NCBI GenBank assembly: GCA_018667995.1
Contig: JABIQT010000573.1
Coordinates: 1-13,941 of the forward strand
Reading direction: 5' to 3'
From: Candidatus Latescibacterota bacterium
GTDB taxonomy: Bacteria; JAAXHH01; JABIQT01
Length of the DNA stretch: 13,941 nt
Below are positions 3,873-13,491 of the stretch, piece after piece. Position 1 is the stretch's first letter. Every line of letters begins with the position of its first letter. Under the pieces are notes generated by a model, which ran no database searches, was not told where the DNA came from, and worked only from the letters and a program-made list of their open reading frames with translations. Made by a program: the position numbers and the translations under genes.

Positions 3873-5138
3873 TCATGCCACCTCGTCTATCACTTCTCGG
3901 GCTATTTCCACCCACCGTGGCAGACGTTCGGGCTGGTTGTTAAGGGTATGCACGTCCTTCATGATGAGTTCCACACGACACCCGTGAGCCACATTGAGCG
4001 TATGGCGAAGGTCGGCTCGAATGGCGTCTTCATTGAACACTTCGGTGCTAATCAAGGTCGGGTTTGACTTGCGAGAGTATACGATATCCGATTTCAGCGA
4101 CTCCGCCATATACGCCTCGTCCGCCCACGGGGACACGGAGACGCGCGCCAGGTTAGGAATGTCTTTCAGTATCTCAATGCGGCTGTGTACGGGCTCACAG
4201 CATCCGTAGTAGCACTTACCGAACTGTTCGGCGATACTAAGCTGATATGGAAAGACGAACTCCTCGAATTGATCGGGGCCGACACCTACCGTTTCCTGGG
4301 ACTCAACCAGCACCCACTGGTCCCGCATGCGCACTGAGTTCCTTTTCTCCTGATCGGTTAGCGGCAGGTCGTGTGTGTAGCCCGTACTGCCGGAGCCTAT
4401 GTAGTCATTCTGGTTGTTCAGGTTGAGCAGACCTTCTTTCTCAAGCCAGGAGGCGTAGGCCAAATGGTCATCCCGGAGAAACTTCATGAGACGATGCAGT
4501 CCCTCCGGATTGTCGTACATGTAGAGCATCATGTTTTCCATGCCGATCAGTTCGATCGCCGTCCATGTCATTCCCATGGTCCACCAGTGGGAGCCCCGAA
4601 TGCATACTGGGAGGATGGAAGCAAAGACATGCTCCAGGCGCGATAATTCGACCTGCGTCGATTCGCGATCGACCGAAAATGTCCGCTGCGCGAGTTTGTG
4701 GAAGTCCCTATCCAGATCCTGGATGGGGGGATCCCATCGGCGTGCCGTGAGGTGCCCGTGGTTCTCCGGGTATTCCAGGACGACCTCCGCCCCGTAGTTG
4801 CTGGTATTCACCTTCCAATTTGTCGTGAAATACGGTTCGACCACGTGATCGTCCCCAAGTGTCCTGAACCGGTAAATCTCCAGACGGAGTGTCTTTTCAA
4901 CGCTCCGAGCCCAGGCATCTTCGCATTGGAGAACAGATTCCGGAAGCGGCAAAACGGCATCCTGTACTCCCTGGGTCTCGGCGAGCACCATTGGGCGTCC
5001 CCCACCCCCGGCATCGTGCAGGTACCAGAGGCGCCTTCGTTCCAGATTGACCGAATCCTCGGCAATTTCAACTTTGCACTCGGCCAGTTGGCGGAGAATA
5101 TCCACATCATGCCGAGGAAGATTCTTTATATCAGACAT
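3873..5138 (-). CDS. URO-D/MtaA superfamily protein with Gly-Cys-Cys-Glu metal-site variant
   Basis: A 421-residue protein, the longest of the five URO-D-like proteins here. The C-terminal half carries the superfamily barrel: WWTMGMTWTAIELIG at 185-199, a helix of 'YDNPEGLHRLMKFLRDDHL' type at 208-226, YYGCCEPVHSR at 310-320, IPNLARVSVSPWAD at 327-340 and LIMKDVHTLNNQPERL at 391-406. Aligned by hand on the shared IPNL segment with the protein at 7391-8452, its C313-C314-E315 falls at the His-x-Cys ligand site. The His is replaced by Gly312, and the third ligand Cys is absent. It may bind metal through Cys314/Glu315 or differ in chemistry. It is not a plausible HemE, which lacks this architecture. 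The ATG at 5138 follows AAGGAG by ten bases. A 131-base gap separates it from the gene upstream. Confidence 0.85.
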   Translation of the reverse strand: MSDIKNLPRHDVDILRQLAECKVEIAEDSVNLERRRLWYLHDAGGGGRPMVLAETQGVQDAVLPLPESVLQCEDAWARSVEKTLRLEIYRFRTLGDDHVVEPYFTTNWKVNTSNYGAEVVLEYPENHGHLTARRWDPPIQDLDRDFHKLAQRTFSVDRESTQVELSRLEHVFASILPVCIRGSHWWTMGMTWTAIELIGMENMMLYMYDNPEGLHRLMKFLRDDHLAYASWLEKEGLLNLNNQNDYIGSGSTGYTHDLPLTDQEKRNSVRMRDQWVLVESQETVGVGPDQFEEFVFPYQLSIAEQFGKCYYGCCEPVHSRIEILKDIPNLARVSVSPWADEAYMAESLKSDIVYSRKSNPTLISTEVFNEDAIRADLRHTLNVAHGCRVELIMKDVHTLNNQPERLPRWVEIAREVIDEVA

Positions 5139-5269
5139 TAAATTCCCACTCCTTGTCAGTGTCAGTGGCTACGCACCAGGTGATCCCATCTGATGAGTGG
5201 ACCAGAACCGGGGGCCGGCGAGCGACGCAAAGCGTGTGTCGGATCTGGCTTCGCGACCGAGTTAGGTCG

Positions 5270-6244
5270 TCACGTACCGACGCGAAGGAACACTTCGTAG
5301 GCCCACCTGTCCCACTCAGGTTCCACCCCGATACCGTGCAGATCACCATAGTTCTTGGCTACAAATCCACCCCGGAATGTCTTGGCCAGGCGTTCGGTCT
5401 CATACTCGATCAGCGTCCTGTCTCCTGTCGGTAGCACTTGCTGGATGTCGCAGGGAGAGAAGAGGCCAACTCGGTGTTTGCGCAACTTTCGCGCCAGTGC
5501 TGGCAAGTCGTATACAAGCGGCTGGTCGAATTGTAGGCAGTCTATGCCTGACTCGCACAGATCATCGAGCAGGTCCCAGTTGTATCCGCACGAGTGCTGG
5601 ATCACTTTCATTCCATACTTGTGAGCTCGATCTGCCAGTCGTTCGTACAGCGGGCGGTAAATATCACGCCACATGTCCGGTCCCATCAGAAGGCGGTCCT
5701 GCGTGCCGAGGTCCTCGCAGAACATCACTCCATCCATGCCGGCTTCGCCATACCGGTCGATGACGCCTTCCAGCAGGCGGGTGACGCGATCGTGAAGGCG
5801 GTCTACGTGTTCGCGCTCCAGTACCAGGTCTACAAAATAGATCTCCATTTTGCGCATATACCTACAGATAGCAAACGGCCATCCGGGCATCCAGCCGACT
5901 CGAAATCTACTATGGTCATTCATGCCCAGAGACCGGGCTCGCTGGAAATACCTCGGATTGTCCAGGTCGGGCAGTTCAATGCTATCGATATCGTTCCAAT
6001 CCGCAAGGACCGGCTTGCATACCTCGCCTCCTTTCGACATTCCCTTTGTCCTGTGCCATGTGTTACCCCAAATGTCGGTATAGTATTCGAATGGCCCCTC
6101 TTCCCATCGTTTGATTTCGATCTCATGATCGCACGAGGCCCCCGTGAAATCGTTCGCGTGGGCCTCACTGGTCGTAAAATTGAGACCAATACGTTCGTGG
6201 CAGTCGTATTCCATGTTGCTGACTATGATTTCGCGGGGCGTCAT
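5270..6244 (-). CDS. URO-D/MtaA superfamily protein, HxC...C zinc-site type
   Basis: A 324-residue protein with the normal URO-D superfamily length and order: MTPREIIVSNMEYD start, FCEDLGTQDRLLMGPDMW at 175-192, YRPLYERLADRAHKYGMKV at 196-214, HSCGYN at 217-222, GIDCLQFDQPLVYD at 233-246 and SPCDIQQVLPTG at 263-274. His217, Cys219 and Cys265 fit the His-x-Cys-x(n)-Cys zinc pattern of methylcobamide:thiol methyltransferases (MtaA/MtbA). It is therefore a better candidate for methyl transfer to a thiol or corrinoid than for porphyrin decarboxylation, although no corrinoid protein is present. The ATG at 6244 gives the classic MTPRE opening; an AGGA lies very close to it, so initiation may be weak. 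The gap from the upstream gene is 38 bases. Confidence 0.88.
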   Translation of the reverse strand: MTPREIIVSNMEYDCHERIGLNFTTSEAHANDFTGASCDHEIEIKRWEEGPFEYYTDIWGNTWHRTKGMSKGGEVCKPVLADWNDIDSIELPDLDNPRYFQRARSLGMNDHSRFRVGWMPGWPFAICRYMRKMEIYFVDLVLEREHVDRLHDRVTRLLEGVIDRYGEAGMDGVMFCEDLGTQDRLLMGPDMWRDIYRPLYERLADRAHKYGMKVIQHSCGYNWDLLDDLCESGIDCLQFDQPLVYDLPALARKLRKHRVGLFSPCDIQQVLPTGDRTLIEYETERLAKTFRGGFVAKNYGDLHGIGVEPEWDRWAYEVFLRVGT

Positions 6245-6282
6245 ATCCTGCTACTTTCTGTGTTGGGTACCGAGCCAAACAG

Positions 6283-7401
6283 CTACCGACCAATCAGTTT
6301 TCGTTTTTTCTCCAGGTAATCACAATAGTGACCGTAAGGGATATCCGGGGGGACCAGGTGGTCAAGGTGGGGAATGTAACCGCCCTGTTCCAGTAGCGGT
6401 CGGATTCGTTCCAATTCCCTGTCGATAGCCGTGCCGCCCACCACCAGCGGTTGCTTGGCGATGGCCCCCCGGAGGCGCAGATTCATCCCGAATTCTCTGC
6501 GCCAGGAGAATGGGTCAACGCCGGCAGCAACCTCAAGGGGAAACATGATATTCACGCCCTCCTCAAGCCAGTTCTGTACGATGTCATGGGGATCTCCGTC
6601 GCTGTCAACCATACTGATACCACACCCCCGCAGCTTGGCAGCTGTCATCACCTTATTGTAGCCGGGCTGCAGGAATTCACGGAATGTGTCTGGGCTGACC
6701 AGGGGCCCATTCTTTCCGGCCATATCCTCCCACCAGTCGACCTGATCGATCACAATGTCATCCGGAATACGGTCAAGTTGCCGGACGATCAAGTCACCCC
6801 AATCGGAGACCATGCTATGAATCATTTCCGGGTAGTCATAGAAGGCATATGACAGATTTTCCATTCCCATCCAGTTCCTCAGCTGGCCATAGAAGCCCAC
6901 AAAAAAAACCTTAATAGCGGACCCATTGTGGCAGGCCTGGCGGGCCTCCTCGACAGCCTCAACCGATATTGATCGCACCGGATCCTCCGGGTCATAGCGG
7001 TCCCTTAAGAGAACCCAGTCATCGGGAGTCTCGACCGGGAACCGGATGTACCTTGGAATTGAACTCTCATCCGCGTCGTTAAGAAACCGCTCAGCCAGGA
7101 CACCGTCCTCTCCCCGCACGATAGTGGAGGCCTCTCTTCGCTCAATGATCTCCTCCTCAAACATCGGATGCATTTCGAAATTGAGGGGGATGCTGTGCCC
7201 TTCATGCTCGAACTGGAAAAAATCATCGAGCTTTCTGCAAAACATGTCATTGGTTTCGCTCTTGGTTAGCTCAAGGGGCATTCCCTCAGCAATCCATCGT
7301 CTTATTGTCTGGGGCCAGTATCCGAACTCTATGTCGGGGGGGCGATCGACGTTCTGATATGTAAAGACCTTGAAGAACCGATCTGTAATGTCAGCGCGCA
7401 T
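6283..7401 (-). CDS. URO-D superfamily protein with Asp-x-Asp-Gly variant
   Basis: A 372-residue URO-D-like protein: MRADITDRFFKVFTYQNVDR opening, the helical FVGFYGQLRNWMGMENLSYA segment at 167-186, WWEDMAGKNGPLVSPDTF at 223-240, VDSDGD at 265-270, INIMFPLEVAAG-type strand at 282-294 and IPHLDHLVPPDIPYGHYCDY near the C-terminus. At the position where MtaA-type enzymes have His-x-Cys-Gly, it has Asp266-Ser-Asp268-Gly, and no third Cys follows. The canonical zinc site is therefore missing and a different metal or no metal is likely. The start is ATG at 7401, preceded by AAAGGA nine bases away. An upstream in-frame TTG at 7422 would add seven residues without a ribosome site. It overlaps the end of the upstream URO-D gene by 11 bases. 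Confidence 0.88.
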   Translation of the reverse strand: MRADITDRFFKVFTYQNVDRPPDIEFGYWPQTIRRWIAEGMPLELTKSETNDMFCRKLDDFFQFEHEGHSIPLNFEMHPMFEEEIIERREASTIVRGEDGVLAERFLNDADESSIPRYIRFPVETPDDWVLLRDRYDPEDPVRSISVEAVEEARQACHNGSAIKVFFVGFYGQLRNWMGMENLSYAFYDYPEMIHSMVSDWGDLIVRQLDRIPDDIVIDQVDWWEDMAGKNGPLVSPDTFREFLQPGYNKVMTAAKLRGCGISMVDSDGDPHDIVQNWLEEGVNIMFPLEVAAGVDPFSWRREFGMNLRLRGAIAKQPLVVGGTAIDRELERIRPLLEQGGYIPHLDHLVPPDIPYGHYCDYLEKKRKLIGR

Positions 7402-8452
7402 GTTTCGAGTTCCTTTGTTCAAATAGAGCTCTGAGTTTATGTGCCTGTTCCAACGCCTGCGATCTGGATTCCGCAGAAACCTGTAGAACGGCCCGACAAT
7501 CCTCAGGCCAGTGTTTCGTCCATGAAAGCGGGTCCCCGTCCCCGCACCAGTTATGCATCTGTGGCACCTGGGATGCGAAGTACTGGTATGCTTCCTGGAG
7601 TTCCGTCACAGGCTGCACCAGGTTGAGAAGCTGGAGGTTGGGGATTCGTTTCAAATGCTCCCACTGATGCCGGGCATCGGCACAGCAGTGAATTCCGATA
7701 CCACCGTATCGCCGCGACAACATTGTTAACTGAGGCAGAAATAACGCTTCAAACACGTCTGGGCTGACGGCGCCTATTTCATCTTCGGAGAGCGTCACAC
7801 CACCGGGCATATAGTAATCCGGGTAGTGTGCTATGAATTCCACACCATATCGGGAGAACCATTCATCCAGAAACGCGGTAAGCAGTAACCGAACCTTGTC
7901 CGCCAGTTCTCTAACAGCCGCGGGGTTTTCGATTACCGCCACAAAAAAGTCTGTCTTTTCCCATATCAGAGCCGCGATGTCCATGGGGCTCTGTATGTCT
8001 ACCAGTCTCATTATAGCCTCTGGTCCACCCCTGGCGCGCAACTCGTCTGCGATATCAAACAGAATGCTCAGGCACGGTGCACTCAGATCGGGCACGCGCA
8101 GTCGCGAGGCCTCAGAGGCATTCTGGACGAGGGGGCGAGCGAACGGATTGGTGAAGTCAGGGCGATGCACAGGGCATCCAAATGCCTCTGCAAAGATCTC
8201 TGTTCCGGTGTAGGGATTGAGATGCGGAATTGAATCGTCATCAAGCCACTCGGTGCGCGCCATGTCGTTTTCATAGAGGTCCCAGGCCCAATCAATTCGC
8301 TCCTGCTTCGCGTGCGGATTCGGCAAAGGCGGTTCTCCGCCGTTCTCAGAATAACGAATGAGAAAGAGGTGGGACGGAGGTTTGTCCATATCGTAGAAAT
8401 CCCGCCAACGCGCTTTTCGAGCTGCGATATTCGATGTAGCATTCAGGTTCAT
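7391..8452 (-). CDS. URO-D/MtaA superfamily protein, HxC...C zinc-site type (second copy)
   Basis: A 353-residue protein with a short N-terminal extension (ARKARWRDFYDMDKPPSHLF at 11-30), LFLIRY at 29-34, an aspartate/tyrosine-rich HYPDYYMPGGVTLSEDEIG segment at 209-227, VSPDVFEALFLPQL at 229-242, the ligand segment IHCCADARHQWEHL at 254-267 and HNWCGDGDP at 300-308. His255, Cys257 and Cys303 reproduce the His-x-Cys-x45-Cys spacing of the protein at 5270-6244, although overall similarity looks low. The start is placed at ATG 8452, which has GGAG five bases upstream. A GTG at 8518 would add 22 residues but has no ribosome site, and the extra residues look non-conserved. It is the first gene of block B, after a 409-base gap, and its stop overlaps the start of the next URO-D gene. 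Confidence 0.85.
   Translation of the reverse strand: MNLNATSNIAARKARWRDFYDMDKPPSHLFLIRYSENGGEPPLPNPHAKQERIDWAWDLYENDMARTEWLDDDSIPHLNPYTGTEIFAEAFGCPVHRPDFTNPFARPLVQNASEASRLRVPDLSAPCLSILFDIADELRARGGPEAIMRLVDIQSPMDIAALIWEKTDFFVAVIENPAAVRELADKVRLLLTAFLDEWFSRYGVEFIAHYPDYYMPGGVTLSEDEIGAVSPDVFEALFLPQLTMLSRRYGGIGIHCCADARHQWEHLKRIPNLQLLNLVQPVTELQEAYQYFASQVPQMHNWCGDGDPLSWTKHWPEDCRAVLQVSAESRSQALEQAHKLRALFEQRNSKHAR
7411..7416 (-). promoter_or_regulatory. Ribosome binding site AAAGGA for the URO-D gene ending at 6283
   Basis: AAAGGA lies nine bases before the ATG at 7401 and inside the 3' end of the upstream URO-D gene. This supports the ATG over the in-frame TTG at 7422. Confidence 0.6.
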
Positions 8453-8861
8453 GGATTCTCCGCTTGGTAGACGGGACGCTCGATTTTGGGAGCCTACTGG
8501 GGTACCATATTTACTCACGGTTTGGATAGCCAGTTATAGGAACCGTAGGTGTTAACCTTGGTGTGGCGTGGCATCAAGTCACTGACGACTTTTCTTCATT
8601 CTGAGATAGGGTGCTCTTCCTGTTGCACCAACTGCGTGTGCCAATCGCTGGCATATCGTTTTCTGCGGATCGGACCGCATCTGCCGCGGAAGTGTAAAGG
8701 CCCCTCTACGACGATTCACGGAATCGGTGATACGATCGGACTCGGCAAGCATTAGGGGCACGGGCAAACCCAAGAATTCCCAAGCCATTGCTCATTGCTG
8801 CTTTGTACTCCCATCCTGAAAACGCCAAAATACAGGGGGTCGGCACTGTACATACCAGTAC
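8453..8861. other. Intergenic region between blocks A and B, probably holds terminator/promoter elements
   Basis: This 409-base stretch has no recognisable gene. On the minus strand a 69-codon frame (8579-8788) exists, but it has no ribosome site and no family I know. Just after the block A stop, an imperfect TACAG...CTGTA stem with a ten-base loop and a short T run (8827-8850) is a weak terminator candidate. A TATAAC hexamer at 8533-8538, about 80 bases before the start of block B, resembles a -10 box, but no good -35 partner is seen at the right distance. A GTG at 8518 in frame with the next gene is judged not to be its start. Confidence 0.5.
8458..8461 (-). promoter_or_regulatory. Ribosome binding site GGAG for the first block B gene
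   Basis: GGAG lies five bases before the ATG at 8452. The only upstream alternative, GTG at 8518, is preceded by no purine-rich site. Confidence 0.6.
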
Positions 8862-10025
8862 TCAGGTGCGAGGAAATTCCCCTTCCGGGTTGCCACATAC
8901 ATCATGGAGCAGGGACATGAATTTACACAGGCTGGTATAGCTGACGAACGGCTGCAAACCATGATCTCCGTTCGGGAAATAGCGTCCTCTCTGCAGAAGC
9001 TCAGGAACCTTACTCATGATCTCTTCTACTATATGGTGCTCATTTCCCTCGTTGACCGATTCCTTCTCCAGCCATCCAAACATCACGAAGTCGTTATACT
9101 GCTCCCGCAATGCGAACAGGTCATTGCCGGCTTTCACCTCAAACGGGTAGATGGCGTTTACGCCGCATGAGGCGGCAACACCTGTAAACTCCATTGCATT
9201 GCCATCTGTGTCGACGGCCACAATCTCCGCACCATTTGCGTATGCACAGCCAGATACCTCACGATAGTATTGTCCGAAAAAGATCTTAAAGTGACTGGGG
9301 GACAAAAGCATACCATGATTGTAGCACAGGTCCTCCCCAATGCAAACGACTTCAGGCCGCAGCCTTTCAATCAATGGGAAGACATGCTCTCGAATGGTCT
9401 GCAGGCTATTGTTGGTGATGTCATGCACAAGCTCAGGATCTTCGTAAAGGGCGATACTCGCGGCCTCCGGTCCCATCAACCCTCGAATCCGGCCGTAGGT
9501 GCTGCCGGCACTCACATGGAGCGGCCTGTTCCTGTCGTCAAAGCGCCGGCAGTTCGCCTCCATTTGGTCCCGGGACATGAAGCACCGGGGTTCGGTTTTT
9601 TCCTTGTAGAACTCCCAGGAAGCGCGGTCTCTCACCGGGTAGCGGATGAACTCGGGCATACTGTAGGTCACATCGTTATCCACAACCTGTCTCGTGAGGG
9701 AACCATTCTCCGATTCAATGACCTCGTACCCGTTTTCGATGTGTGTGCTGCTCTCGAAGCCCTGCTCGCCCCATGCAAGTGAGAAGTCGAGCCCTATAGG
9801 CCCCGTAGTGCCCCAATAATGATACCAGCTCTCAACTTCCGGATTACCCGTGACCAAACTCGCACAGCCCCCCACATGGGCCGGCATACCGGCCTGCACC
9901 AACCGTTCATGTGTCCTGGCCATGCACCCACCGCTCATGCCCGGGGCACCTGGAAAGCCAAAAATCGGGGTATAGTCGGGTTCTTCGCCGCGACAGATTG
10001 CTATGAATCGTTCTCGATTATCCAA
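8862..10025 (-). CDS. URO-D superfamily protein with Asp-x-Asp-Gly variant (block A)
   Basis: A 387-residue protein with the opening DNRERFIAICRGEEPDYTPI and a glycine-rich GFPGAPGMSGGC at 23-34, then HVSAGSTYGRIRGLMGPEA at 170-188, IGEDLCYNHGMLLSPSHF at 229-246, VDTDGN at 271-276, NAIYPFEVKAG at 290-300 and FPNGDHGLQPFVSY at 350-363. Asp272-Thr-Asp274-Gly replaces the His-x-Cys-Gly zinc motif, as in the block B protein at 6283-7401, so these two form a subgroup. It is the only URO-D protein grouped with the glycyl radical enzyme, after a 42-base gap from the methyltransferase. The start is taken as TTG at 10025, with GGAG nine bases upstream. A TTG at 10040 would add five residues and has no ribosome site of its own. 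There is no ATG near the expected start. Confidence 0.85.
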   Translation of the reverse strand: MDNRERFIAICRGEEPDYTPIFGFPGAPGMSGGCMARTHERLVQAGMPAHVGGCASLVTGNPEVESWYHYWGTTGPIGLDFSLAWGEQGFESSTHIENGYEVIESENGSLTRQVVDNDVTYSMPEFIRYPVRDRASWEFYKEKTEPRCFMSRDQMEANCRRFDDRNRPLHVSAGSTYGRIRGLMGPEAASIALYEDPELVHDITNNSLQTIREHVFPLIERLRPEVVCIGEDLCYNHGMLLSPSHFKIFFGQYYREVSGCAYANGAEIVAVDTDGNAMEFTGVAASCGVNAIYPFEVKAGNDLFALREQYNDFVMFGWLEKESVNEGNEHHIVEEIMSKVPELLQRGRYFPNGDHGLQPFVSYTSLCKFMSLLHDVCGNPEGEFPRT

Positions 10026-10034
10026 TCCACTTCG

Positions 10035-10038
10035 CTCC
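10035..10038 (-). promoter_or_regulatory. Ribosome binding site GGAG favouring TTG start at 10025
   Basis: GGAG is separated by nine bases from the TTG at 10025. It lies inside the codons of the longer alternative start at 10040, so it cannot serve that one. Confidence 0.45.
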
Positions 10039-10067
10039 AATCTGTTTGAGAAAAGCGCAGGCGCGCA

Positions 10068-10781
10068 TCAGGTCTGGAAAACCATGATATTCGCCTTACT
10101 GACCGCTGGGTCGAAGGGCGTTCCGGTATAGTCGCCGAAGTTACCACACAGCGTGAATCCGATGTCTCTGTGGAGTGAGAGGTAGGTTGCGTGTTTCAAC
10201 GGGTACAGGGGCGTGACTTCATCGAAGACCACCTCTTCCCCGGACATCAGAGCTGTCCGAAAGGATACCTCACGATCAGATACATTTCCATACTGTCTGA
10301 TGAACTTCAGCGAGCCGCCTTCGATGATCTTATCTGGGAAATTGTACGAGGGTTCGCTTAGAATGGCATCCCAGTTTACTACCTGGAATATCCAGTAACC
10401 CCCGTGGCACAGCAACTTGTACACGTGCTCCAAAAAGTGTCGCACGCCGCTTTCTGAAAGGTGCGAGATGACATTGCCAATGGAATAGATCAGGTCGAAG
10501 GTTTTCCCCAGGTCCTGAATCTGAGACATGTCCATTTCCAGGAAGGACGCAATCTGATAGTGAGCTTTAGCGTAAGTTATCATATGGGCGTCCCTATCGA
10601 TCCCAAGGACTTCCGCGCCGCCGCGAGCGAATTCGCTGGCGTATTGTCCTGTCCCACAGCCCGCATCAAGAACCTGCGTTCCGCTAGCGTCGGCATACTG
10701 CTGTAAAAAAGAAAAGGCGCTCTCCTGAAACGGAAAAACGGCTTCATAATATCGTGAGAATTCCGAATAGAATGACCTCAT
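10068..10781 (-). CDS. Class I SAM-dependent methyltransferase
   Basis: A 237-residue cytoplasmic methyltransferase with motif I VLDAGCGTGQYA at 37-48, an acidic motif II (GIDRDAHMI at 60-68), the DMSQIQDLGKTFDLIYSIGN region at 84-103 and the post-motif GGYWIFQVVNWD at 127-138. This is a Rossmann-like methyltransferase of the UbiE/COQ5-like shape. The substrate is not predictable; small-molecule or sugar-type acceptors are as likely as others. It sits 42 bases after the glycyl radical enzyme and 42 bases before the block A URO-D gene, so it belongs to that operon. The context suggests it acts on the same pathway compound. The ATG at 10781 matches the usual short N-terminus before motif I, but the ribosome site is weak. 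Confidence 0.9.
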   Translation of the reverse strand: MRSFYSEFSRYYEAVFPFQESAFSFLQQYADASGTQVLDAGCGTGQYASEFARGGAEVLGIDRDAHMITYAKAHYQIASFLEMDMSQIQDLGKTFDLIYSIGNVISHLSESGVRHFLEHVYKLLCHGGYWIFQVVNWDAILSEPSYNFPDKIIEGGSLKFIRQYGNVSDREVSFRTALMSGEEVVFDEVTPLYPLKHATYLSLHRDIGFTLCGNFGDYTGTPFDPAVSKANIMVFQT

Positions 10782-10823: not shown

Positions 10824-12908
10824 TTATTCGTCCTGTAAGGCTCGCTGAATGATGTGGTTCTGCATGTCTTCACACAGTTCTACAAAACGCGCGGAGAATC
10901 CCCATACTCTGACTATGATATCCCGGTGTCTCTCAGGGTGTTCCTGTGCTTCTCTTAAGGCACTAACGTCATAGATCGCCGTATTCATAATGGCCACACC
11001 CTTTTGCAGAGCGCCTGCGATTAGGCCCCCCAGCAGTTCTTTGCCCTCGGAGCTTCGGGGTGCCATGGCCCGTGCTAGCGAAATATGGAAGACCGAAGAG
11101 CCGCAGGCGTCACCCAACGGTCCTTTGGCAGCGGATCGAATGACCGCTGTTGGCCCACCCGTTGCCTTCCCGGGCGTCGGTGAGTAATGCTCTCCGATGG
11201 GATCGTTCCATCTGCGTCCATCCGGCGTTGCGCCGACAACTTTGGTGAAGTCGTTGAACAGGTGATTGTAGAGAGCGGGCCAGAAAGGCTTCCCGGTGGG
11301 AGTTGGCCACTGTTTCACTCGATCGCAGAATCGTCGGGCAATATCGGTGGCGATCTTATCCACCCGATCATCATCATTGCCGAACTTGGGGGCTGCTAGG
11401 CAGAGCCTGCGGAGACTATCGTGCCCATCGAAATTCGCACGAAGGGCTACGAGCAGTGATTCGGGCGAACAGTATTTCTGCTCGAATACAACTTGTCTGA
11501 CCGCGGCCAGTCCATCGGCGACGGTAGGAATTGAACCCGAGAACAGCATGTGGCACGGGACAGTGAAGCCTCCTCGAAAAGGATCTAGACCGGTCCTGAG
11601 ACTTTCGGGGAAAGTGCCGGACAGAAAGGGCGACGAGCAACCCCGCTCCGTGCTACCTATCACGCCCTGGGTTAGCTCCTCCAGTTTCCTGTCCACTTGA
11701 TACAGATATTGATCCAGGAATGCCTCGTAGAACTGATCAAATTCCGTCATGGAACTGAAGTCACCTGTCCGGTACCCAGCCACGAGGGAGGTCTCGAGTT
11801 GGCGGATCGCCTGTATGCTGGTGACGTATTGTCCTGTGGGTGTTCCGTGGAGTACGTTCTCCTCACCGTTAAATAGCGTCAACTCCAGTGATTTCACGGC
11901 CTCCATCTGCAGAAAACTGATTCCGCTTTCGCCGTCAATGGTAACTTCTGTACACCCGTCATTGCTGTAGTTTCGCGCGGAAGCAGTTGGAACGCCCTTC
12001 TCTATCAAGGAGGGGAGGAGGGCTTCGTCGTTGTAGACGGTTCCCTGACCGTGACCAAGAAGCTGGAGATCTACGAGGCTGTCAATGAACGCCTGCGAGG
12101 TGTTTTTATGCACCCTCGCGCTCAGGTGGGGTTCCGGTTTGCAGACAGCAAGGGAAGCCTCAATCATGAGATAGGAGAGATCGTTTGTGGCGTCCTGGCC
12201 CTGATGATCCTGGCCGCCCACCATGAGGTTTCTCAGTGTGTCACCTGTGGTTCCACGATTGAATCCGTTCCAGAGTTCAATGAGCAGTGACAGTACAGAG
12301 TTTTTGGAGACACAACCGGACTCCATATCACGTTTATAGAACGGATACAGATGCTGATCCAAGCGACCGATAGTGCCCTTCCCTCGCAGGCACCACGCGA
12401 ACCAGAACAGCTGGATAGCTTCAGCGAAGGATGCCGGAGCCCGCACACCGACCGCACGACAATTCTCACGTATCTGTGTCAACCTCTGTGACTCTTCATC
12501 CGTACAGTCTGCACAAAGTTCGTCAGCAGCTATCGCGTGTGCTTCCGCGAAGGTTGCCGACGACCTGTGGCATCTTGCGATGGCCGATAGGAATGCGGCG
12601 GGTTCGCCATGGGTTTCGCAGGCCCTCTCTTCCGCGGTCTGTGCGATTCCAACGAATCCCAATCGCAGCAGTGTACCCACATTCATGGAAAAGTGGAGGT
12701 TGTCTTCACCTCGCTCGGGTGCCCTATCATTCTGCTTCTGAATCGCCTCCCATGTAAACGTATCGGGACCGGCAAGGATGCCACTGTCGGGAATACTCGC
12801 GGGGGTGCCCGAGACCATCGCCTCGAACGTGTCCGCCGCCCGCTCAGCTACCTGAACTCGCCTATATATATCGGTAGTCGTCTGCTCAGCCTGTGTGACT
12901 ATTGACAT
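10824..12908 (-). CDS. Glycyl radical enzyme (pyruvate formate-lyase/dehydratase superfamily)
   Basis: A 694-residue glycyl radical enzyme. The N-terminal NLHFSMNVGTLLRLGFVGI (70-88) and the LDQHLYPFYKRD segment (183-194) are typical. The active-site loop is NDGCTE at 316-321, giving thiyl Cys319 and Glu321. Near the C-terminus are TPDGRRWNDPIG at 561-572, GPTAVIRSAAKG at 585-596 and the radical motif RVWGFSARF at 667-675 with Gly670. Cys-x-Glu is seen in eliminating members such as diol dehydratase and choline lyase rather than PFL, which has Cys-Cys. The protein is shorter than the usual 760-850 residues, mostly at the N-terminus. No PflA-like activase is in the window. The start is ATG at 12908; the upstream ATG at 12947 overlaps the preceding gene and adds 13 unconserved residues. 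The substrate is unknown. Confidence 0.92.
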   Translation of the reverse strand: MSIVTQAEQTTTDIYRRVQVAERAADTFEAMVSGTPASIPDSGILAGPDTFTWEAIQKQNDRAPERGEDNLHFSMNVGTLLRLGFVGIAQTAEERACETHGEPAAFLSAIARCHRSSATFAEAHAIAADELCADCTDEESQRLTQIRENCRAVGVRAPASFAEAIQLFWFAWCLRGKGTIGRLDQHLYPFYKRDMESGCVSKNSVLSLLIELWNGFNRGTTGDTLRNLMVGGQDHQGQDATNDLSYLMIEASLAVCKPEPHLSARVHKNTSQAFIDSLVDLQLLGHGQGTVYNDEALLPSLIEKGVPTASARNYSNDGCTEVTIDGESGISFLQMEAVKSLELTLFNGEENVLHGTPTGQYVTSIQAIRQLETSLVAGYRTGDFSSMTEFDQFYEAFLDQYLYQVDRKLEELTQGVIGSTERGCSSPFLSGTFPESLRTGLDPFRGGFTVPCHMLFSGSIPTVADGLAAVRQVVFEQKYCSPESLLVALRANFDGHDSLRRLCLAAPKFGNDDDRVDKIATDIARRFCDRVKQWPTPTGKPFWPALYNHLFNDFTKVVGATPDGRRWNDPIGEHYSPTPGKATGGPTAVIRSAAKGPLGDACGSSVFHISLARAMAPRSSEGKELLGGLIAGALQKGVAIMNTAIYDVSALREAQEHPERHRDIIVRVWGFSARFVELCEDMQNHIIQRALQDE

Positions 12909-12916
12909 TCCGTCTA

Positions 12917-12920
12917 CCTC
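12917..12920 (-). promoter_or_regulatory. Ribosome binding site GAGG for the glycyl radical enzyme
   Basis: GAGG is eight bases before the ATG at 12908 and overlaps the TGA stop of the flavoprotein gene (12919-12921). This supports translational coupling and the shorter start. Confidence 0.6.
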
Positions 12921-13491
12921 AGTCCGACACGGATCGCTCGTCCGCATACGCCGCCAGCCATTGCCCTGTCGTCCTGAGCAGTGTCTTTTTCAGATCCAGA
13001 TTCTGTTTCCGTACCGGAATCATATCCACCACATCAAGACCGCATTCCCCTAATACCTTCTCCAGGCTCACCGTGCAGTGAGGCGCTCCACTGCCGCCAC
13101 CACCCGCAACGCAGATGCCCACGGCGGGTTTCTCGATCAACCCTTTTTTGCCTACTTCGTGGGAACAGGTTCGTCGCAGGCGATCCAGAAACGCGCGGAG
13201 ACTTTCGCTCAGATCACCGAAATACACGGGCGTCGAAAAGGCGAGAGCATCCGCCTGTTTGACCTTGTCAACAAGACCGGCGAAATCGTCCACGATTTCA
13301 CAAAGGCCCTCCGTACGACAACGTCCCCATCCGTCATCTTCACACTGATGACATCGATCGATCTTCCTCTCGGGCAGGAAGACCGATTCCGTCTGATTTC
13401 CTTCCCTGGGAACTCCCTGAAGCAGAGCTTCCATCGCCTGAGCTGTCTTTCCGTCCTTATTTCGGCATCCTGCTATTGCGAGTATTTTCAT
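12919..13491 (-). CDS. Flavodoxin-fold (NADPH-dependent FMN reductase / iron-sulfur flavoprotein-like) protein
   Basis: A 190-residue flavodoxin-fold protein. MKILAIAGCRNKDGKTAQAM (1-20) is the phosphate-binding loop region, STPVYFGDLSESLRAFLDRL at 86-105 is the family signature, and GICVAGGGGSGAPH at 125-138 is the second flavin loop. Cys47, Cys50, Cys58 and Cys64 form C-x2-C-x7-C-x5-C in the region where iron-sulfur flavoproteins carry their compact cysteine motif, so it may hold an Fe-S cluster, though the spacing differs from the classical pattern. The ATG at 13491 has GGAG six bases upstream. It is the first gene of block A, 10 bases ahead of the glycyl radical enzyme start, and may supply electrons for radical activation or for another step. 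The role in electron transfer is inferred. Confidence 0.85.
   Translation of the reverse strand: MKILAIAGCRNKDGKTAQAMEALLQGVPREGNQTESVFLPERKIDRCHQCEDDGWGRCRTEGLCEIVDDFAGLVDKVKQADALAFSTPVYFGDLSESLRAFLDRLRRTCSHEVGKKGLIEKPAVGICVAGGGGSGAPHCTVSLEKVLGECGLDVVDMIPVRKQNLDLKKTLLRTTGQWLAAYADERSVSD

Follow-up and report, generated by a model that had tools for sequence, protein, structure and literature searches.

The substrates of many clades of glycyl radical enzymes (GREs) are not known. In this oxygen-sensitive enzyme class an activase and SAM generate a glycyl radical, which gives rise to a Cys thiyl radical that abstracts hydrogen; the CxE motif is that of the eliminases, and its Glu acts as the base in most of them (PMC7077986). 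The described systems closest to the enzyme studied here are the B12-independent glycerol and 1,2-propanediol dehydratases (1R8W, 5I2A, 9RCO), together with the eliminases CutC (choline TMA-lyase, 5FAU), HypD (trans-4-hydroxy-L-proline dehydratase, 6VXC) and YbiW/PflD. The PDB titles of 8id7 and 8id0 describe YbiW/PflD in complex with 1,5-anhydrohexitol 6-phosphates, a precedent for a sugar-phosphate ligand on the GRE eliminase scaffold.

The window, a stretch of 13,941 nt, is the entire contig C1067 of a 6.06 Mb metagenome-assembled genome (MAG) in 1165 contigs, 85% complete and 4% contaminated, so that just 1.03 kb is visible upstream of the GRE start. The phylum is represented by 16 genomes in the data set, all of one order. 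Twelve recognisable genes, all on the minus strand, are separated by gaps of 5–42 nt within groups and by three larger gaps of 131, 275 and 343 nt. The GRE, its catalytic codons and its neighbours are as follows.

10824..12908, minus strand: short GRE, intact, 694 aa plus stop (Pfam, motifs, and an AlphaFold2 model built with 51 sequences; pLDDT 92.2, pTM 0.92)
12693..12695, minus strand: codon of His72, the eliminase His (aligns with chain position 164 of glycerol dehydratase 1R8W)
11946..11954, minus strand: codons of Cys319-Thr320-Glu321, the CxE motif of eliminases (motif alignment)
10899..10901, minus strand: codon of Gly670, the glycyl radical site in VRVWGFSARF (Pfam and alignment)
12919..13491, minus strand: FMN-reductase/flavodoxin-like flavoprotein with a Cys cluster, CHQC...CRTEGLC (Pfam); its stop lies 10 nt before the GRE start
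10068..10781, minus strand: SAM-dependent class I methyltransferase (domain matches), 42 nt after the GRE
8862..10040, minus strand: distant URO-D-like protein (Pfam), 27 nt after the methyltransferase

The original prediction of a GRE of about 694 residues with Cys319-x-Glu321 and Gly670 agrees with the ORF, the Pfam domains and the motifs; it did not name the strand, which is minus. The start ATG (12908) is preceded at a suitable distance by GAGG, while the longer alternative of 707 aa, from an ATG at 12947, lacks one. The protein is a member of the GRE superfamily, with a PFL-like barrel, a catalytic Cys loop and a C-terminal Gly radical domain. PF02901 (PFL-like) matched with 302 bits, the profile being entered at position 159 of 647 with its N-terminal part absent, and PF01228 (Gly_radical) matched with 50 bits, over its cut-off. 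Alignment of 98 GREs revealed Gly in the Gly670 column in every sequence, His in the His72 column in 81 and the CxE motif in 82. The Cys loop reads GCTE, compared with CCVS in PflB, and is thus without the two adjacent cysteines of pyruvate formate-lyase. By its C-x-E motif the enzyme belongs to the eliminase class, and elimination is its predicted activity.

Scores against the NCBIfam equivalogs for HypD, CutC, HpsG, IAD, HPAD and PFL1 were all far below the cut-offs (HypD 253 against 1100 bits, CutC 239 against 1050, HpsG 258 against 1000, PFL 71 against 994), and in maximum-likelihood trees the protein clustered with no characterised GRE, E. coli PflB, PflD and YbiW and Klebsiella CutC all falling outside its clade. 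Together, cut-offs and trees rule out identity with a known GRE. Comparison of the model with the PDB gave Z 39.6 for 1,2-propanediol dehydratase (644 residues, 2.5 Å), 39.2 for CutC, 38.9 for glycerol dehydratase and 38.3 for HypD, near-tied values that indicate class and not substrate. On this point the original prediction is supported: profiles, trees and the similar PDB scores of many eliminases place the protein with no characterised GRE. The best solved relative by family profile was the B12-independent glycerol dehydratase (372 bits).

The diol dehydratases share with the focal enzyme the fold (Z 37–40 over ~640 residues), the CxE motif, the catalytic Gly and a His (His164, focal H72), but are only 24–30% identical; the focal N-terminal region is shorter, and no microcompartment or diol locus was recognised for the short GREs. 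The loop carrying His281/Ser282 in glycerol dehydratase is shortened in the focal enzyme, where by alignment it holds R175. HypD has the CxE motif, the eliminase fold and, by alignment, a His (His160) at the position of focal H72, whereas its Asp278 position is Gly176 in the focal protein. CutC shares CxE and fold; unlike CutC, the short GREs have no cut or BMC genes beside them. YbiW/PflD form a separate clade lacking Arg175, His261, His574 and Arg613 of the short GREs. Residues invariant in seven short GREs and rare or absent in 44 others include D69, R175, H261, D325, S459, F551, H574, R613 and Y646; Arg175, located in the shortened loop before GRLDQ, occurs in none of the 44. Since the aligned pocket residues differ from those of all solved enzymes, homology does not reveal the substrate. 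An anionic substrate, for example a phosphorylated one, would be in keeping with several conserved positive residues.

An alignment of three GREs served as the query in a search for homologues across 84,980 genomes; a contig scan with the single focal protein as query gave no match. Six close homologues, all clostridial, were found among the matches listed, scoring 477–736 bits to the focal protein against at most 290 for everything else listed, and a seventh came from sampled Lachnospiraceae genomes. The family therefore has at least eight members: the focal protein, those of Clostridium oryzae and C. zeae, four from ruminant-gut clostridial MAGs and one from a further Lachnospiraceae-family genome. 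The clostridial proteins are 38–49% identical to the focal GRE where measured, and ~656–697 aa long. All members have a short N-terminus and a length of ~655–700 aa, and the clade is marked by GDTL, PxPH and R-V-W-G-[FY]-x-A-R-F, each present in the focal protein. Shortness is a trait of this family of at least eight members. The original prediction was right that the protein is intact with 694 aa, and its view of the length as an oddity does not hold; the shared length and the intact motifs rule out a truncation or pseudogene.

The eight-member clade received support of 100/100; within it the focal protein is nested among the clostridial members (96/92), a placement suggestive of transfer between phyla. 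No other member was found in the 16-genome phylum, among the 84 genomes of the phylum to which a related MAG belongs, or in a viral scan and plasmids. The short GREs were rare in Clostridiaceae (2/206) and Lachnospiraceae (2/397), and two order-level searches, with overlap between their listed samples, each gave 1/394. They are a small, previously unstudied GRE family in gut and soil clostridia and the focal bacterium. Separately, a contig catalogued as viral (L117, IMG/VR contig IMGVR_UViG_3300022698_000034) carries the C-terminal part of a GRE and an activase, and may be a mis-sorted bacterial contig.

The original prediction also stated that the window has no activase, whereas most GREs have one adjacent. 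When all window ORFs of at least 60 aa were searched by phmmer with nine activases as queries, none matched. Of 50 related GRE loci flanked by 3 kb or more on either side, 43 have an activase within 3 kb, which supports the general statement; absence at the focal locus is unusual, not unique. Each of the seven clostridial short GREs has an adjoining radical-SAM activase, so that the missing gene is peculiar to the focal contig and not a trait of this kind of GRE. A search of the rest of the MAG revealed two clear TIGR02494 activases. That on C1152 is complete and is followed, as read by eye, by the 5' part of another GRE gene, while that on C435 is interrupted by the contig end, and another GRE comes after it. 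Both are 38–45% identical to the clostridial family activases, no closer than to others; with other GRE genes adjoining them, neither qualifies as a dedicated focal activase, though either could act on the focal GRE in trans.

The focal copy could be a horizontally acquired relic, no longer functionally activated since its dedicated activase was not transferred. Its nesting among Clostridia, its absence elsewhere in the phylum and the lack of an activase that all seven relatives possess would fit such a history. Nevertheless, the ORF is intact with all catalytic residues retained, its codon-position GC matches that of the neighbouring genes, the spacing to the flavoprotein is tight and the MAG encodes two other activases, making this account improbable.

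The GRE on C435 (L019:631-2847) has a Cys-Asn-Trp Cys loop, with the activase immediately upstream. A contig of 3.8 kb (C890, L018) carries a tandem pair of GRE genes and no activase; its complete GRE clusters with GREs from Poribacteria and SAR202, and for several of those, too, no nearby activase is seen. On C595 (L020:2403-4691), a GRE with Cys-Asn-Arg replacing Cys-x-Glu lies directly downstream of two URO-D-like genes. Despite this unusual Cys loop, it otherwise scores with eliminases.

The flavoprotein, methyltransferase and URO-D-like neighbours named in the original prediction were all confirmed by Pfam. The URO-D-like proteins number four in succession, the one adjoining the methyltransferase lying just under the cut-off in a genome search; a fifth protein of similar length (3873-5138) has no Pfam match. 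The flavoprotein could possibly serve as electron donor for an activase. The MAG contains ~33 URO-D-family matches in 6 Mb, four of them in the window (3873-10040), a large lineage-specific expansion. None of the three gene types was found at the seven clostridial loci, which excludes them as conserved partners of the GRE. Because of this absence and the ~33 URO-D copies, the window context is weak evidence on substrate. The GRE might still work with the URO-D and methyltransferase genes, for example in demethylating a methylated compound, as URO-D-like genes also lie beside the GRE on C595 and one in a same-order genome (G015). However, these other GREs fall in clades different from the focal one, the window revealed no corrinoid protein, the URO-D proteins are a many-copy family and none neighbours a clostridial short GRE; we regard such a partnership as highly improbable.

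The clostridial neighbourhoods, with regulators and transporters partly recognised by eye, are of three different types, so that a single common substrate is not certain.

L025 and L042: GntR, deoxyribose-phosphate aldolase DeoC, FGGY kinase, Fe-ADH, GRE, activase
L027: GntR, FGGY, short GRE, activase, second GRE, DeoC-family aldolase, Fe-ADH
L024 and L026: LacI, ABC sugar transporter, two GH32 proteins, GRE, activase, PfkB kinases; L026 also sucrose phosphorylase
L115: GRE, activase, then LacI and ABC sugar transporter genes
L028: activase and GRE only

Sugar-utilisation genes thus lie around or beside six of the seven clostridial short GREs. DeoC in L025 scored 181.7 bits against the TIGR00126 cut-off of 117.3, and the DeoC proteins at short-GRE loci retain the FVKTGTG and KAAGG lysine motifs. 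The second GRE of L027 (6340-8523) sits on a very long branch and its Cys loop reads TCMQ; it shares one activase with the short GRE. In sister clades, GREs are accompanied by aldehyde ferredoxin oxidoreductase-like genes (L036, L072) or by RpiB and aldehyde dehydrogenase (L033). In a Poribacteria MAG (L036:2043-5286) the oxidoreductase-like gene follows the GRE after 35 nt, with a similar pairing in L072 and, by eye, in L088; such a pair possibly constitutes a module for radical dehydration and aldehyde oxidation. Taken together, the clostridial and sister-clade neighbourhoods suggest that the substrates are carbohydrates and the product an aldehyde. The focal locus (contig C1067) has neither an activase nor a sugar kinase, aldolase, ADH or transporter, and the focal substrate may therefore differ.

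The carbohydrate neighbours could alternatively be coincidental, the focal GRE being an eliminase of other chemistry, such as a C-N or C-S lyase or an amino-acid or N-heterocycle dehydratase. The scaffold is common about equally to CutC, HypD, IslA and HplG, and the family-invariant R175, H261, H574 and R613 could bind an anionic group such as sulfonate or carboxylate. Against this, sulfite, amine and microcompartment genes were recognised beside none of the eight short GREs, six of the seven clostridial members adjoin sugar-utilisation genes, and every NCBIfam lyase model scored far under its cut-off; we consider such chemistry somewhat unlikely.

Given the clostridial carbohydrate loci and the fold of the B12-independent diol dehydratases, the reading we favour, at about even odds, is that the focal GRE is a competent radical, B12-independent dehydratase of a sugar, sugar alcohol or sugar phosphate, with a (2-deoxy) aldehyde as its probable product. 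From residues, fold, family and gene neighbourhoods we infer dehydration, the substrate class, activation in trans and the pathway as a whole. A PflC-type activase, either encoded just past the contig end or working in trans, would convert Gly670 to a radical. The radical would pass to Cys319, which would take hydrogen from a hydroxyl-bearing carbon; Glu321, with His72 tuning it, would then remove the hydroxyl proton, and the adjacent hydroxyl would depart as water, leaving the (deoxy) aldehyde.

In the clostridia with DeoC, FGGY kinase and Fe-ADH, a 2-deoxy sugar would be phosphorylated and cleaved by DeoC to acetaldehyde and triose phosphate, with reduction to ethanol for balance. The neatest reading of these loci would be conversion of a pentitol (or pentitol phosphate) to a 2-deoxypentose (phosphate), followed by acetaldehyde and glyceraldehyde 3-phosphate and finally ethanol; at the GH32 loci a sugar derived from fructan may be the substrate instead. 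A search of the open-access literature, which leaves most subscription journals outside, returned nothing relevant on GREs with DeoC, pentitols, fructan or anhydroglucitol. That the short GREs open a so far undescribed anaerobic pathway, from sugar or sugar alcohol to 2-deoxy sugar and through DeoC to acetaldehyde and triose phosphate, with ethanol as electron sink, is a tentative proposal that we judge unlikely on present evidence.

The short GRE clade is small and sharply bounded, and since the cultured strains C. zeae and C. oryzae carry an adjoining activase and a readable sugar locus, its chemistry is directly testable. If the DeoC-linked reading is true, 2-deoxy-sugar catabolism in ruminant gut bacteria would have an additional, radical entry.
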